This document shows, in pieces, positions 38,552 through 45,470 of a stretch of DNA of 64,000 nt. The notes below the pieces were generated by a model. That model did not search any database and had not been told where the DNA came from. It saw only the letters and a list, made by a program, of their open reading frames with translations. Source of the DNA: Methylophaga sp. Lineage in GTDB: Bacteria; Pseudomonadota; Gammaproteobacteria; Nitrosococcales; Methylophagaceae. The stretch covers positions 1 to 64,000 of the forward strand of contig DRHW01000001.1 in NCBI GenBank assembly GCA_011053005.1. The letters are read 5' to 3'. The first letter of the stretch is position 1. Each line of letters starts with the position of its first letter. The position numbers and the translations under genes were made by a program.

Positions 38552-39190
38552 TTAGTGGGTTACAACTTCAAACTCGCCTGTTTGCGGGTTAAAGCATAAT
38601 AAATCACCCTCAGGAATATCAAAATACCAACCATGTAGACTCAATACACCTTGCTCTACTCGTTCACGAATACATGAAAAAGTCATCAGGTTAGTCAGTG
38701 ATTCCAATATTGCACGTTGTTCACATGCTTTAATTTGGGCATCAGATGATGCTTTAGGTAAAGCGTTTCGTACCCAAATTTTTGCAGGGTTTGCTATAGA
38801 AACCCATGGGTGAATAAATTTTGATTTTGCGCTAGCTTTGTCATCACTTTCCCACAATGCTTTGATACCGCCGCAACCTGCATGGCCCATAATAATGATG
38901 TTCTCAACTTCCAAATTATTGACTGCAAATTCTAATGCGGCACTTGTACCGTGATAATCCCCTCCTTGTTCGCAAGGGGGAACAAGGTTAGCAACATTAC
39001 GAACGATAAATAAATCGCCCGGATTACAATCCGTTAAAATCGCAGGGTCAACGCGAGAATCACAGCATGCGACCATTAAGGTCTTTGCTGGTTGTCCATC
39101 TTTCATACTGGCATATAATTGACTATCGTCACCAAAATATTGGGTCTGGAAACGCTTAAACCCATCTAATAACTCTTCTGTACTCGCCAT
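38552..39190 (-). CDS. beta-class carbonic anhydrase
   Basis: Interconverts CO2 and bicarbonate. 212 aa. Zinc ligands are visible: Cys and Asp-Arg pair in ACCDSRVDPAIL, then GHAGCGGIKA with His and Cys. LFIVRNVANLVPP is typical. Monocistronic. It is similar in size to the CynT/Can group. Confidence 0.94.
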   Translation of the reverse strand: MASTEELLDGFKRFQTQYFGDDSQLYASMKDGQPAKTLMVACCDSRVDPAILTDCNPGDLFIVRNVANLVPPCEQGGDYHGTSAALEFAVNNLEVENIIIMGHAGCGGIKALWESDDKASAKSKFIHPWVSIANPAKIWVRNALPKASSDAQIKACEQRAILESLTNLMTFSCIRERVEQGVLSLHGWYFDIPEGDLLCFNPQTGEFEVVTH

Positions 39191-39826
39191 ATAATTCTTT
39201 ACCTCAAAAACTTGAAAAATGAATTTATTGTTCGTTTTAGCCTTAGTAGCCTATATTTCCAATTGATAAATCAACTTCACAGGATGCTACTGTATTCACT
39301 GCACCCTCTTGAAAAGAGTCATCATTATAATGACAAACCTTTTAATGTTGAAATTAAAGTGTAATAAGCAGGCCAAAACGAGGATTATTTTTAGGGCGTA
39401 CTTGTAAGTGAAAGTTTCCGCAGGTAAATTTCACACTATTTGAAATGACGGTTAGGTAGTAAATTGAAGCATTTAAACATGGGCGAATTGATATTGTATT
39501 TTCATCAATTGGTTGTCATTGTTAATTAAAGCTACGTATCTGTTAGTCAATAACCCATGATTTAGAAAAGTTAAAATTATTTTAACTCAAGATAAGCTCT
39601 CGGACTTTTTGAACACACTGTGAAAGTACCCGTTTTTTTGACCAACATAATGACAAGCATAACGTTTGCAAAGATTAGTAACAGAAATTACAGCCGGATT
39701 AGCTGTTAGGCTTTAAGATGAGAAAGAACGGAACTTAGCATACTAATCTTAACTATCGAATGGTTTCTTTATATTTATTAAACGTGTCGACTAACTAAGA
39801 GAGTCACTTTCTGAAGATAAATAAAA

Positions 39827-39862
39827 AAATCTGACTGCTTCTAAGTACAAGCAGTCAGATTT
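39827..39862 (-). terminator. second stacked terminator of repeat-protein gene
   Basis: Perfect 14-bp inverted repeat AAATCTGACTGCTT (39827-39840) and AAGCAGTCAGATTT (39849-39862), 8-base loop. Reading on the minus strand it is followed by a run of seven T, an ideal Rho-independent terminator. Confidence 0.85.
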
Positions 39863-39888
39863 CCTATATTTCATTGACTCAAAACACC

Positions 39889-39924
39889 AGAGAAGATGAA
39901 TAAATATCTCTATTCATCTTCTCT
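39889..39924 (-). terminator. first stacked terminator of repeat-protein gene
   Basis: Perfect 14-bp inverted repeat AGAGAAGATGAATA (39889-39902) and TATTCATCTTCTCT (39911-39924), 8-base loop. It starts 28 bases after the repeat-gene stop; T run moderate (GGTGTTTT). Confidence 0.75.
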
Positions 39925-39952
39925 GAAAAGCAATACCCGATATGGCTAAGCT

Positions 39953-41155
39953 TTAGTCATTAGCCTTGTACCATTTTTTACGACTAGCACGTGCAGCTTC
40001 TAAATTGGCTTGATACCACTTTTTCTTAATATCAGCATGAGGATCAGCATGCATGTTAGCTTCATACCAAGGAGTATCACTCTGAACCGTCGCTAACTGA
40101 TTAGCTTCATACCATTTAGCCTGATTAATACGAGCAGCCTCCAAATTGGCTTCGTACCATTTTTTCTTAGTATCGAAATGACTTTTCATTTCTGCGTTGT
40201 ACCAATGCTTACTATTCTGACTCGCTCGTGCCGCTTCTAAGTTAGCTTCATACCATTTCTTTTTTGTGTCTGCATGAGGATCAAGATGTAAGTTAGCCTC
40301 ATACCAAGGTGCAGCGGTACTTTTAAGCGATTGTAAATTAGCTTCGTACCACTTGGTACGACTTTCACGAGCAGCCACTAAGTTAGCTTCATACCATTTC
40401 CGCTTGGTTTCAAAATGACTTTTCATTTCAGCGTCATACCAAGGTTTACCTATCGCTGTTTCCCTAGTTTCATACCACTTATTCTGTGTCGCTCTTGCTG
40501 CTATCGTGTTTGCTTCATACCACTTATTTTTGATATTTTTAGTTCTAATTAGCGCAATATTCGCTTCATACCATTTATGTTTGGTATCGGCATGAGGATC
40601 AAATGCTAAAGTAGGATTCGCGTTATACCAATGCCTATTTTGACGGCTAACACGCGCTGCTTCTAGATTGGCTTGATACCATTTCTTTTTAGTCGCCATA
40701 TGTGGATCAGCATTAATATTCGCCTCATACCATGGAACTGCAGTACTTTTAACTGATTGCTGGTTGGCTTCATACCATTTAGCTTGACTTGCTCTCGCCG
40801 CTGCTAAATTAGCCCGATACCATTCGTTTTTAACATCAGACTGTGTATTAGCTTCATACCAAGGTGTTTGCGGTAAGTTAGCTTTATACCACTTAGTTCG
40901 GTTTTCTCTAACCGTTTTAACCGCTGCGCTTAAGTTAGCTTCATACCATTTTCTTTTGGCATCTAAATGTTCAGCTAAATCAGCCTCATACCAGTGTTTC
41001 CCACTAGCAACTGCAGGCTGTTTATTGGCTTCATACCAATGCTTATCAGTCGTTTTAGCTGCTTTATTATTGGCTGTGTACCATTTAACTCGACTGTCTC
41101 GTGCTGTTTGTAAATTAGCTTCGTACCATTTAGCTTTAATATCGATTGTAGTCAT
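39953..41155 (-). CDS. WYEAN tandem-repeat protein, function unknown
   Basis: I do not recognise this family. From the chosen ATG the protein has 400 residues and consists almost entirely of 26 copies of a W-Y motif, consensus KWYEANLEAARAS, spaced 10-20 residues apart (mostly 15-17). Variants begin PWYEAN, HWYNA or KWYQAN. There is no cysteine, almost no glycine, no signal peptide and no membrane segment, so it should be cytoplasmic. It is Lys/Ala/Glu/Asn-rich and probably helical, with a Trp-Tyr pair on each turn unit. DPHADTKK and MKSHF elements recur in a larger period. The ATG at 41155 has GAGGTG seven bases upstream; an upstream ATG at 41182 would add nine residues. It lies 97 bases after the small secreted gene and has its own promoter candidate and double terminator, suggesting strong, separate expression. 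Confidence 0.88.
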   Translation of the reverse strand: MTTIDIKAKWYEANLQTARDSRVKWYTANNKAAKTTDKHWYEANKQPAVASGKHWYEADLAEHLDAKRKWYEANLSAAVKTVRENRTKWYKANLPQTPWYEANTQSDVKNEWYRANLAAARASQAKWYEANQQSVKSTAVPWYEANINADPHMATKKKWYQANLEAARVSRQNRHWYNANPTLAFDPHADTKHKWYEANIALIRTKNIKNKWYEANTIAARATQNKWYETRETAIGKPWYDAEMKSHFETKRKWYEANLVAARESRTKWYEANLQSLKSTAAPWYEANLHLDPHADTKKKWYEANLEAARASQNSKHWYNAEMKSHFDTKKKWYEANLEAARINQAKWYEANQLATVQSDTPWYEANMHADPHADIKKKWYQANLEAARASRKKWYKAND

Positions 41156-41252: not shown

Positions 41253-41672
41253 TTATTCAAAACAATGCTTTTCGGCTTTTACTTGCTGTAATACAGCAAT
41301 TTTTTGATCGACCTCTAACATACGACGTTCCTCTTTTTCTTCAACTAAACCCGAATAACCAAGATAAGCTAAAGCAAACAAACCATGTACTACAGGCACG
41401 CTATCTAAAACAATTAATGATGCCGCTATCTGATTCGCACCATCGTCATGAAACGATGGCTTATAAGTATAGCGATAAGGTTGAAGGTACCGAATGGCAT
41501 TATCCAGTTGCACACAGCTTTGTTGATAAAGTTGATCTGTCGCTTTTTCTACCGGCGGCTCAAAATAGATAGGCTCTAAAGGTACAGGCGGCATGGGTAT
41601 AGCCTGAGCAATAGTTATCATAAAGATAAAACTTGATACAACAGATAACTTAAAAAAGGGCATGATGTTCAT
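41253..41672 (-). CDS. small secreted protein of unknown function
   Basis: 139 aa with a clear signal peptide (hydrophobic stretch at about 8-24, cleavage likely after AQA). The mature part starts with a proline-rich segment (PMPPVPLEPIYFEPP), has two cysteines (near 53 and at the C-terminus) able to form one disulfide, and a mildly hydrophobic patch near 90-108 (VVHGLFALAYLGYSGLV). No family is recognised. It starts 17 bases after the kinase gene stops and is most likely in the same operon as the kinase and response regulator. Confidence 0.75.
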   Translation of the reverse strand: MNIMPFFKLSVVSSFIFMITIAQAIPMPPVPLEPIYFEPPVEKATDQLYQQSCVQLDNAIRYLQPYRYTYKPSFHDDGANQIAASLIVLDSVPVVHGLFALAYLGYSGLVEEKEERRMLEVDQKIAVLQQVKAEKHCFE

Positions 41673-41689: not shown

Positions 41690-43825
41690 TTAGTTGTTAT
41701 ATGTTGTTAGCGGCAGCCTGATACAAAACTCCACACCTTGTTGCCAATTTCGCGCAATTACTTTTCCGCGATGTTTATCGACAATCAATTTAACGATATA
41801 TAACCCTAATCCTAAATGAGGTTCTGCTGTTAGAGTTACTGATGAACGAATAGACACCATCGGTTGAAATAATTGCTGCTGCACTTCTTCTGGCAAATTA
41901 GCACCATGATTTCTGATTATAATTTCTACAAATGGCATCTTTTTTTCATCGACTGAGTGTTCCAATACAATCAAAATTGAGGTGTTAGCGAGATGAAAGT
42001 CAACGGCATTGCTAATTAATTTATCCAGCATTTGCACGATCAAGTCCTGAGATCCTTTAATCATTATCTTTTCATCAGGAATATCAGCGCCGAACTTAAC
42101 ATCCTGATAAATATCACGATAAACCGGAATAATATCGATCAGTAATTGCTGTAAATTAAAGTCTTGCAAGGTTTCTTTCGTCACAGATTGTTCCAATCGA
42201 CTAGCCTCACTCATACGCGCAACGATACTATTTAATCGCTCGCTTCCGGAGCGTGCTCGATCAATATAAATTTGTTGCTTATCAGGTGTTTGTTCCAGAT
42301 GCTCTAATGAGGTTCTGATGACAGCTATTGGCGTACGTAATTCATGGGCTAAACGTGATGCCAATGCCTCAAGATAATCAGTATAAAGTGTCAACCTTCC
42401 AAATAATTGAGCAAAACTTCGGCGCAATTCACCTAATTCATCTTGCTCGATACGATGTATAAAATGACCATCAACTCGTCCTTCACCGTTTACCATCTTT
42501 GTGACATCTTGATTTAAACGCTTAATACGAAAAGACAAACGACTCGCAAAACCAATCAGCGTGATAAGCATAATCGCAAAGACCAGCAACATTGTATTTA
42601 ATAAGGCTTTAACCGCTTGATTTTGTAGACCCAGTATCGCATTGGTATTTTGCTCGACAACAACCGCGCCAATGATCTTATTATCCAGTATAACGGGGTG
42701 TGCAGCGACGATCGTCGTTTGACCGTCATCATTGATTATCATATGTCCTGTTTCCGCTTGACCTTGTAGAGCAATCTTTACGGTATTGCTGACTAATACA
42801 GCTTGCTCATGACTAATAGATTCATCATCAGACACCGCTTCTGTTAAAAATAATTGATAAAACAAATCACTTAATGAGTTTAATTCAGTATCAGCAATCA
42901 TCACGTCACCTTGGCCAACGGAAGCCAAGGTATTCGCTTGATTATCAACTAGCCATATCCGGACACCGTCTGTTGCCATTGGCGCTAAAACAGTGGCGAG
43001 TTGTTTCGAAGGCAATAAAACATCGGCAAATAAATCACGGTCGCGAACATCACCTAAGCCTAAAACCTGAGGTGTAATTTCCTCGCTATCCACATCGACG
43101 ACCGCTAAAGCCAAAGATTGTTTTAACATTGACAGTGGCAAACTTAATTCAAATCGATAACCGTAAGCAGATCGCTGCCACGCCCCTTTAATAGCAGGTT
43201 GCTGTTGAATAATGACAGGATCCAAATAACTACCAAAAAACTCATAAGCATTAATTTGACCAAATGTACTCGCACTTAATATGTAACGATGAACTCGCTG
43301 CTGCGCGTCAACTGTTGCCAAAACAACAGCATCACCACCATGCCGCTGACGTTTACGTGGGTCACGAAAAACAACCGAATCATCCACCACATCCAATAGC
43401 ATGTTCAAGCTATTTTGATGTTGAGCGAAGATATAGCGTACAGTCAGATCTTGAGGATCAATTTTATTTTTGGGTGATAATTGATTGACCACAGAAAAGG
43501 TGTGGCGTAACGATGTGTAAGCCTGCCATTCATCCTGGTAACCATCAATCTCCGTCAACGTGTTAAAACTAGCAACAGCTACTTTATTGGATGTATGGGA
43601 CTCTTTTAATGCCGTTAAACGTTCAGCAAATAGTCCAGGATATTGAGCCACCAGCACTGTACTTGCTTTAGCAATCGTTGCCATTGACTTAGCTTGTTGT
43701 TGCTGCAACAAACCTTCTACCGCTTGAATGTAATGCACGCCCAGCCAAGGTATTAATAGTAATACAAGCGAGACTAGCAATAACTTACTGCGTAATTTTA
43801 ATCCGAAAGATGGCCAAAATTTCAT
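41690..43825 (-). CDS. pdsS: sortase-system sensor histidine kinase (PdsS-like)
   Basis: 711-residue membrane kinase: helix at about 13-33, a large periplasmic domain, second helix near 405-425, HAMP, HisKA with His at about 494 (LAHELRTPIAV), and HATPase with ISNAVDF and HLGLGLYIV. The layout, length and neighbourhood (OmpR-type regulator directly upstream, OmpA-like protein divergent) match the kinase of the proteobacterial dedicated sortase system. The periplasmic part has a DEWQ start, a DDSVVFRDP strand and a GAWQ/YGYRFELSLPLSML end that look like a CBM9-type sandwich. It abuts the regulator gene with no gap. The sortase assignment is from recalled family features, not a search. Confidence 0.75.
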   Translation of the reverse strand: MKFWPSFGLKLRSKLLLVSLVLLLIPWLGVHYIQAVEGLLQQQQAKSMATIAKASTVLVAQYPGLFAERLTALKESHTSNKVAVASFNTLTEIDGYQDEWQAYTSLRHTFSVVNQLSPKNKIDPQDLTVRYIFAQHQNSLNMLLDVVDDSVVFRDPRKRQRHGGDAVVLATVDAQQRVHRYILSASTFGQINAYEFFGSYLDPVIIQQQPAIKGAWQRSAYGYRFELSLPLSMLKQSLALAVVDVDSEEITPQVLGLGDVRDRDLFADVLLPSKQLATVLAPMATDGVRIWLVDNQANTLASVGQGDVMIADTELNSLSDLFYQLFLTEAVSDDESISHEQAVLVSNTVKIALQGQAETGHMIINDDGQTTIVAAHPVILDNKIIGAVVVEQNTNAILGLQNQAVKALLNTMLLVFAIMLITLIGFASRLSFRIKRLNQDVTKMVNGEGRVDGHFIHRIEQDELGELRRSFAQLFGRLTLYTDYLEALASRLAHELRTPIAVIRTSLEHLEQTPDKQQIYIDRARSGSERLNSIVARMSEASRLEQSVTKETLQDFNLQQLLIDIIPVYRDIYQDVKFGADIPDEKIMIKGSQDLIVQMLDKLISNAVDFHLANTSILIVLEHSVDEKKMPFVEIIIRNHGANLPEEVQQQLFQPMVSIRSSVTLTAEPHLGLGLYIVKLIVDKHRGKVIARNWQQGVEFCIRLPLTTYNN

Positions 43826-44527
43826 TTATGCTTTTTGAGGTGTAACCCAGCGATAACCGAGTCCATATACTGTTTCAATCGATGAAAAATTTGCATTCAC
43901 CATTTGAAATTTTTTTCGAATACGTTTGATATGTGAACTAATCGTATCTTCATCGACATAAATATTGGCTGCTTGCATTAATTGTTCACGGGTTTTGACA
44001 TGGCCGACATATTTCACCAAAGCATGTACTAGCCAAAATTCAGTCACGGTCAGCGGCACAGGTTTATTTGCCAAATTAATTAACATGCGTGCACTATCTA
44101 AAACTAAGTCGCCTTGCGTAATTAAGTCGTCTGCTGTCACGGGTGTTTTCATCAATTCTAGGCGACGAAATAAGGCAGCAATTCGCGCTTGCAAATGGGC
44201 TAAGCCAATATCTTTGGTCAAATAATCATCAGCGCCTAAACGAAATCCCGACACCGTATCCAATTCACTATCACGCGCCGTTAAGAAAATAATCGGTAAT
44301 GTATCTGACATCGCACGTAAATCACGACATAAATCAAAACCACCTTCTGGTTCATCATTCAAACCAATGTCGATAATCGCTAACTCGGGTAAGCGTATTT
44401 TAAAGGCAGCATGCGCAGTCAATCGATTGGCATACGTGTCAACATCGTAACCTTGTCGACGTAATGCTTCTGCATAATTCTCACGAATAGCGGGTTCGTC
44501 TTCAACAATTGCAATTCTACGTCCCAT
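43826..44527 (-). CDS. pdsR: sortase-system response regulator (PdsR-like)
   Basis: OmpR/PhoB-type regulator, partner of the adjacent kinase. Receiver domain begins RRIAIVEDEPAIRENYAEAL; phospho-acceptor Asp in LAIIDIGLNDEPEGG; Thr/Lys switch in FLTARD and LTKDIG; C-terminal winged helix with VTEFWLVHALVKY. I choose ATG 44527 (233 aa) because AGGAG lies about 12 bases upstream and homologous receivers start here; a GTG at 44563 would add 12 residues. First gene of the regulator-kinase-secreted-protein operon, divergent from pdsO. Confidence 0.85.
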   Translation of the reverse strand: MGRRIAIVEDEPAIRENYAEALRRQGYDVDTYANRLTAHAAFKIRLPELAIIDIGLNDEPEGGFDLCRDLRAMSDTLPIIFLTARDSELDTVSGFRLGADDYLTKDIGLAHLQARIAALFRRLELMKTPVTADDLITQGDLVLDSARMLINLANKPVPLTVTEFWLVHALVKYVGHVKTREQLMQAANIYVDEDTISSHIKRIRKKFQMVNANFSSIETVYGLGYRWVTPQKA

Positions 44528-44711
44528 CAGCTTGATATTCTCCTGTTGCCATTTTTCTGCCACATTTTATCGTCACATTGTCCAAACTGCGACCTTATCT
44601 CGCCATCCCGTCATAGTTTAATAAGACTCACTCGGCGCAGAAAGGGTTTTCAATACATGTTGTATTTCATGTCATGGATGACACGCTGAATCATTAACTA
44701 CGGAGAATACC

Positions 44712-45470
44712 ATGTATAAAAAAGCACTCAGCTTAAGTTTACTTATTGTTAGCAGCCCTGCGATTATGGCGGATAATTTTTACTCACAATCCCCTGCTCA
44801 ATTAAATGCGAGTCAAACCAATAAAAGTCAGCACGAAGCCACATCAGGCGGAGTAGGTTTAGTTGTAGGCGCACTTGCAGCTGGTCCCTTAGGCGCAATA
44901 ATTGGCGGTTCAATGGGTGTATTAGTGGGCAATCAACAAAGCAAAGCAGAAACAATCACAATGCAAAGCCATGCTATTTCTGAATTAGAACAAGAACTCA
45001 GTCAAATTACAATCGAATTAGATAAGTCTGAAAAAACGCTACAAACAGCACATGCCAACATTGAAAAGTTAGAATTATCACAACAACAGTTTAGTAAAAA
45101 ACATCGTGAAGACTTAATTCAATTTAGTAATAGTTATCAGTTTGATATCTACTTTTTGACCAATGGTGCGATGATTAACGCCCATGCTCAACAAGGCTTA
45201 AATAAGCTTGCTGAATTACTACGCAATAATCCCAATATCCATGCGGATATTGAAGCACATAGTGATTGGCGCGGCACTAACGACGCTAATAATCAATTAG
45301 CAAGTCAGCGTTTATCTGCAGTGAGTAATCAATTAGCACAAGCAGGAACGCAATCCAATCAATTACTCACTACAAACTATGGCGAACAGTCTAATGAGCA
45401 TCGCGGTTCATGGGATGAAGCATTATTTTACGACCGTCGTGTCACCATTACCTTACGTTATTTTGAATAG
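44712..45470 (+). CDS. pdsO: OmpA-family protein of sortase system (PdsO-like)
   Basis: 252 aa. Signal peptide ending near residue 20 (PAIMA), a glycine-zipper hydrophobic segment at about 45-75 (VGALAAGPLGAIIGGSMGVL), a coiled coil at about 90-130 and a C-terminal OmpA peptidoglycan-binding domain (AHSDWRGTNDANNQLASQRL). This combination next to PdsR/PdsS-type genes matches PdsO. It is expressed divergently from pdsR and ends in a strong terminator. No sortase is nearby. Confidence 0.8.
   Translation: MYKKALSLSLLIVSSPAIMADNFYSQSPAQLNASQTNKSQHEATSGGVGLVVGALAAGPLGAIIGGSMGVLVGNQQSKAETITMQSHAISELEQELSQITIELDKSEKTLQTAHANIEKLELSQQQFSKKHREDLIQFSNSYQFDIYFLTNGAMINAHAQQGLNKLAELLRNNPNIHADIEAHSDWRGTNDANNQLASQRLSAVSNQLAQAGTQSNQLLTTNYGEQSNEHRGSWDEALFYDRRVTITLRYFE

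Follow-up and report, generated by a model that had tools for sequence, protein, structure and literature searches.

What kind of protein consists of Trp-Tyr repeats from end to end, and what might a methylotroph use it for? The question was raised by the locus at 39953-41155 of the window, by which we mean the whole stretch of 64,000 nucleotides that was analysed (contig DRHW01000001.1 of the Methylophaga sp. assembly GCA_011053005.1). A preliminary description, made from the letters of this stretch, had placed a gene for a protein of 26 W-Y repeats there. The coordinates were right; the gene, however, is located on the minus strand, as the plus strand is interrupted by 16 stops upon translation of the same stretch. 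The gene and the signals that follow it are:

41155 to 39953, minus strand: repeat protein gene, with the ATG at 41155 and the stop codon at 39955-39953; 400 aa with 26 WY units
39887-39926, minus strand: first terminator-like hairpin, 18 pairs, directly past the stop codon of the repeat gene
39824-39865, minus strand: second terminator-like hairpin, 17 pairs, with a T run after it

The two hairpins are strong ones and agree with the strong terminator that had been reported. The translation is built of repeats from end to end, and the composition is as it had been described: all 26 Trp residues of the 400-residue protein precede a Tyr, and there are 0 Cys and 2 Gly. In 2000 shuffles of the same composition the number of WY pairs averaged 1.6 and never exceeded 7. 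Successive Trp residues mostly lie 15, 17 or 19 positions apart, and a few are closer together. The protein is basic (pI 9.6, charge +21 at pH 7), with a median pI of 9.5 for its homologues. Neither a signal-peptide-like start, the absence of which had been noted before, nor a sorting signal was seen in the protein sequence. On the level of the DNA, the exact pattern for W-Y-E-A-N was found in 15 copies in the 2.9-Mb genome, every one of them inside the repeat gene, and the reversed pattern that served as a control gave 0 matches. By this exact pattern no other protein of the genome carries WYEAN.

A comparison of the repeat protein with Pfam, NCBIfam, PHROGs, PADLOC, Rfam and the sequences of the PDB yielded nothing convincing. 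The pentapeptide-repeat protein HetL (NF047416) was rejected as a candidate, at 25 bits versus a curated cut-off of 260. No HNH or other domain was matched in Pfam or NCBIfam and, there being no Cys, a CxxC zinc ribbon is absent; by its domain content the protein is not an HNH endonuclease. The searched literature contained no mention of KWYEAN or EANKEK.

The architecture of the arrays was studied among the homologues. The WYEAN motif is nearly invariant, while the spacers and the copy number differ, the size of the array ranging from about 12 to 29 units. Helix-like units (WYEANLEAARASRK) alternate with Pro/Asp-rich units (WYEANMHVDPHADIKKK). In some of the long homologues a 12-unit period of about 183 residues was apparent, with 19 of the 25 units in L042 and 21 of the 25 in L034 finding their best match at +/-12. 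In the homologues with this period, units also match at offsets of 3, 6 and 9, and the repeat patterns thus suggest that the arrays may be built on three nested levels, namely the unit, the triplet and the 12-unit block. The short homologues (about 230-260 aa) correspond to roughly one such block and the long ones (about 400-440 aa) to roughly two. The 12-unit order of the window protein is more reshuffled than that of L042 and L034.

AlphaFold2, given 14 sequences, produced long helices with a packing that was not confident, both for a 240-aa homologue (pLDDT 62.8, pTM 0.19) and for the window protein (pLDDT 54.3, pTM 0.17). From these models we infer that the repeat protein is mostly helical, and nothing further; a fold search with the model of the 240-aa homologue gave no match, the model being too poor for that result to count. 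Right-handed coiled coils with 15-residue repeats are known, the tetramerisation domain of VASP being an example. The repeat protein shares with this type the 15-residue period in a presumed helix, but its Trp-Tyr pairs and Pro/Asp turn units would be unusual for such a coil. Helices at the surface of membranes typically contain Trp, Tyr and Lys; together with the repeated helices in the models, these residues could point to a protein that coats a membrane or a storage granule by way of amphipathic helices and interfacial Trp and Tyr residues, in the manner of a phasin or an apolipoprotein. We consider a role at a lipid surface very unlikely, since the helical hydrophobic moment of the window protein equals that of its own shuffles (z 0.2, with 1.4 and 2.2 for homologues) and few 18-residue windows rise above the lipid-binding score. 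The earlier suggestion that stacked Trp-Tyr pairs bind a glycan or a cofactor found no support.

A homologue is present in 28 of the 29 genomes of the genus and in 53 of the 57 genomes of the Methylophagaceae, the window's own genome included, and the named records that carry it belong to Methylophaga and to metagenome-assembled genomes of other Methylophagaceae. Outside the family it was found in none of the six other genomes of the order, and a sample of 370 genomes of the gammaproteobacterial class gave only 4 matches, all of them to Methylophagaceae. A tblastn search of phage and plasmid records with the repeat protein itself gave no match. Four genomes of the family lack the homologue, and in two of them the absence can be interpreted. 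In a genome of 1.1 Mb (G031) a Coq7-like gene adjoins the carbonic anhydrase with no repeat gene in between, in a second genome (G056) the locus contains neither the repeat gene nor its partner (described below) nor the carbonic anhydrase, and in the remaining two the contigs end there.

The repeat gene is under strong purifying selection, with dN/dS values of 0.01-0.16 in thirteen unsaturated pairwise comparisons. Within the gene, moreover, the copies of the motif have diverged in their synonymous codons, the Ala codon differing in 62% of the unit pairs. The drift among the units together with the low dN/dS implies that the motif is kept by selection on the protein and not by recent copying. 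The downgrading to a local repeat expansion that the preliminary description had foreseen for a protein without homologues consequently does not apply.

The genes that neighbour the repeat gene in the window are:

41253-41672, minus strand: constant partner gene; 139 aa, signal-like N-terminus, two invariant Cys (alignment)
38552-39190, minus strand: beta-type carbonic anhydrase (Pro_CA), downstream; adjoins the repeat gene in most relatives
41690-43825, minus strand: PdsS-like histidine kinase (TIGR03785, 565 bits, below the curated cut-off of 612); outside the conserved unit
43826-44563, minus strand: PdsR response regulator (TIGR03787, above the cut-off); outside the conserved unit

The preliminary description had placed the repeat gene beside a sortase-type operon, and PdsS-, PdsR- and PdsO-like genes of such a system indeed adjoin it in the window (41690-45470). 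The likeness to the Pds sortase-associated proteins (TIGR03785, TIGR03787, TIGR03789, TIGR03784) consists of this adjacency in the window's genome, but the link is not conserved: the locus lacks the Pds genes in many relatives, the other large genus among them, whereas it has the repeat gene and the secreted partner. In a sister lineage (L021, L063) all that is left of PdsS is a short stretch, located between LonB and the partner gene. The sortase of the window's genome (TIGR03784) is encoded on another contig (C19:86813-87334). The low-complexity look of the protein and the adjoining Pds genes might suggest that the array is a neutral local expansion or a target of the sortase-type system, which we regard as extremely improbable. 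The former is contradicted by the presence in 53 of 57 genomes and by the dN/dS values, and the latter by the relatives without Pds genes at the locus and by a protein that has neither a signal peptide nor a sorting signal.

The conserved order, wherever the contig reaches far enough, is partner, repeat gene, carbonic anhydrase, BamE-like gene, Fur and RecN, with the carbonic anhydrase as the least constant member. In G031 the BamE-like lipoprotein (L093:5608-5991, minus strand) contains a Ser-Asp-Lys run (KSDKSDKSDK...), which may be a repeat that expanded in a reduced genome. The partner gene precedes the repeat gene on the minus strand, with 97 bp between the two; its product has a conserved end (KAEKHCFE) and matches no family in Pfam or NCBIfam. 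Of the 53 genomes that have the repeat gene, 51 also have the partner, and the 4 that lack the repeat gene lack the partner too. The pair, kept in order and on one strand, could be taken to mean that the repeat protein is a folded helical rod, a structural element either cytoplasmic or exported unconventionally, that acts at the cell envelope together with the secreted partner; the 12-unit block would suit a defined structure of this kind. Several observations make such a rod unlikely: the near-complete genome G023 has the repeat gene but not the partner, two of the four absences of the repeat gene are merely contig ends, and the repeat protein has no signal peptide. In addition, the partner family is distantly represented in several other gammaproteobacterial families, and beside these relatives neither the repeat gene nor a distant equivalent was found.

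The most informative likeness came from phages. Among 2.9 million viral contigs, scanned for a pair of WYEAN motifs spaced by about 15 residues, 12 proved to carry tandem repeats such as KAWYEANKEKRKVSQ. In most of these the repeats are followed by an HNH-like stretch, and the corresponding PHROGs are those of endonuclease VII or HNH endonuclease. With two of the WYEAN viral proteins as queries, tblastn retrieved 121 and 288 phage records, respectively, many of them annotated as HNH endonuclease or endonuclease VII. An additional viral scan, with Leu at position +5, found nothing. From phage and plasmid records of this kind we assembled a comparison set of 14 phage and plasmid proteins that were not picked by motif. 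Their repeats have a period of 15 residues, with Tyr (62%) or Trp (35%) at position 0, Arg or Tyr at position 1, Glu at position 2 and Asn (96%) at position 4. Many phage HNH and endonuclease VII proteins contain this [WY][YR]xxN repeat (L109:155-769, L112:2223-2978, L117:4012-4662, L118-L132), which matched none of the Pfam and NCBIfam repeat models scanned. Some of the phage genes that carry it have been given unlikely annotations, such as ring-infected erythrocyte surface antigen, glycolate dehydrogenase and coil containing protein.

To compare the two kinds of repeat, an alignment profile of the Methylophagaceae family was matched by hhalign to nine unselected phage and plasmid HNH proteins, the one with WYEAN being left out. 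The match had a probability of 94.6% (E 7e-8, score 60.6), whereas the best of 200 column shuffles reached a probability of 0.5% and a score of 18.8 at most, and the profile of the unrelated partner protein reached 0.1%. Similarly, 15-column profiles of the family and the HNH repeats scored 12.0 in register and at most 2.2 at any other cyclic shift, and 0 of 20,000 column shuffles scored as high. The in-register agreement persisted when the two anchor columns (P 0.0012) or three (P 0.007) were omitted. A profile of unselected HNH repeats with a W or Y core detected 25 of the 37 family proteins, with a best E of 8e-10 versus 1.2 for the best shuffle. In the opposite direction, a search with the family profile was weak, the best unselected HNH protein (3e-4) itself having a WYEAN. 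A cross-search with the phage repeats picked by WYEAN gave E values down to 8e-33 and was discounted on account of its circular selection. As this set is circular, and as a profile of Tyr-only HNH repeats detected no family member, we rely on the unselected set and the shuffle controls.

On the sequence level the Methylophagaceae and phage HNH repeats are certainly alike in pattern, and we think it probable that they are related. The earlier statement that the repeat belongs to no described family therefore holds for curated families, but the repeat does have an in-register relative in the phage HNH endonucleases. The phage and plasmid proteins (PHROG 1035, 7091 and 2340; repeats of the form [WY][YR]xxN[KP][ED]K), exemplified by UAW59186.1 of Roseobacter phage CRP-603 and YP_009611468.1 of Streptomyces phage Samisti12, resemble the window protein in being basic tandem arrays with a 15-residue period, an aromatic residue at position 0, Glu at 2, Asn at 4 and Lys at -1/-2. 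They differ in their HNH domain and in the CxxC zinc ribbon that many of them have at the N-terminus; the Methylophagaceae protein, with no Cys, has neither. Moreover, they contain 2-10 repeats, mostly with Tyr at position 0, whereas the Methylophagaceae have 12-29 units in which Trp is nearly fixed, and the Asn is followed by Lys-Glu-Lys in the phage repeats and by Leu-Glu-Ala-Ala in the Methylophagaceae. Finally, the phage and plasmid genes are on mobile elements, whereas the Methylophagaceae gene is chromosomal and vertically kept. What appears to be new is the occurrence of a repeat, otherwise seen in phage nucleases, as a chromosomal array that has no nuclease and is kept across the family.

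Considering its sequence, we tentatively favour the reading that the repeat protein is a nuclease-free chromosomal array of the phage-type repeat that most likely binds nucleic acid, which was among the options named in the preliminary description. We keep to this cautious wording because DNA binding by the phage repeat is putative as well and no solved structure covering that repeat was found. The repeat, which otherwise sits before the nuclease domain in phage and plasmid HNH proteins, would here be free-standing and vertically inherited, with Trp-Tyr and Ala-Asn nearly fixed and with the zinc ribbon and the nuclease absent. The array may descend from a mobile endonuclease. Given that it has no signal peptide, the protein is most likely cytoplasmic. 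In a basic, mostly helical array, with Pro/Asp-rich turn units between the helical units, the Lys/Arg-rich helical segments that present Trp-Tyr(-Asn) at regular steps probably lie along the nucleic acid, which is more likely to be DNA than RNA. The array might coat or bridge it, like a lineage-specific nucleoid protein. The secreted constant partner fits poorly with a function on DNA. The more specific scenario, in which a core protein of the family took over the repeat array of a mobile endonuclease, dropped the nuclease and became an organiser of nucleic acid with an undescribed Trp-Tyr helical binding mode, is rather unlikely.

The main rival to binding of nucleic acid is a multivalent scaffold, in which the aromatic WYEAN motifs act as stickers on basic spacers and cluster or condense an abundant cytoplasmic protein or each other. 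It would work like PYCO1 (PMC10288592), where a KWSPR motif present in several copies relies on its Trp for binding and where condensation is driven by Trp and Tyr repeats. The likeness to PYCO1 and EPYC1, the linkers of pyrenoid Rubisco, concerns the mechanism only, namely a short Trp motif repeated on a basic chain with a varying number of stickers (PMC10288592); these proteins have 5-6 units with another motif as compared to 26 in the window protein, and no kinship is claimed. The near-invariance of the motif against variable spacers and copy number, the low confidence of the AlphaFold2 models, which have no compact fold, and the high pI, as in PYCO1, are all in line with such a scaffold. 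As to disorder between the motifs, a property of linkers of this type, the models combine a pLDDT of 54-63 with long helices. Nevertheless, the order of the unit types and their spacing are conserved up to a 12-unit block, which is more than a free chain of stickers and spacers needs, there is no candidate partner, and WYEAN, by its exact DNA pattern, is confined to the repeat protein within this genome. We regard a sticker scaffold as possible but doubtful.

With the binding of nucleic acid as the favoured reading, a family-wide and strongly constrained protein of methylotrophs gains a first testable lead, and attention is drawn to a common repeat of phage HNH endonucleases that lies outside the scanned Pfam and NCBIfam models. 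A repeat that binds nucleic acid would constitute a modular binder of helical type that advances in regular steps of 15 residues; otherwise the protein would be an unusual bacterial scaffold of aromatic stickers. Either answer bears on the role of the repeat in many phage nucleases. The expression of the repeat gene that the preliminary description considered likely is presumptive: its rank of 7 out of 63 in codon adaptation, for which EF-G plus respiratory genes served as a weak reference, carries no information on it. Both proteome and transcriptome data have been published for Methylophaga thiooxydans (PMC6548844).
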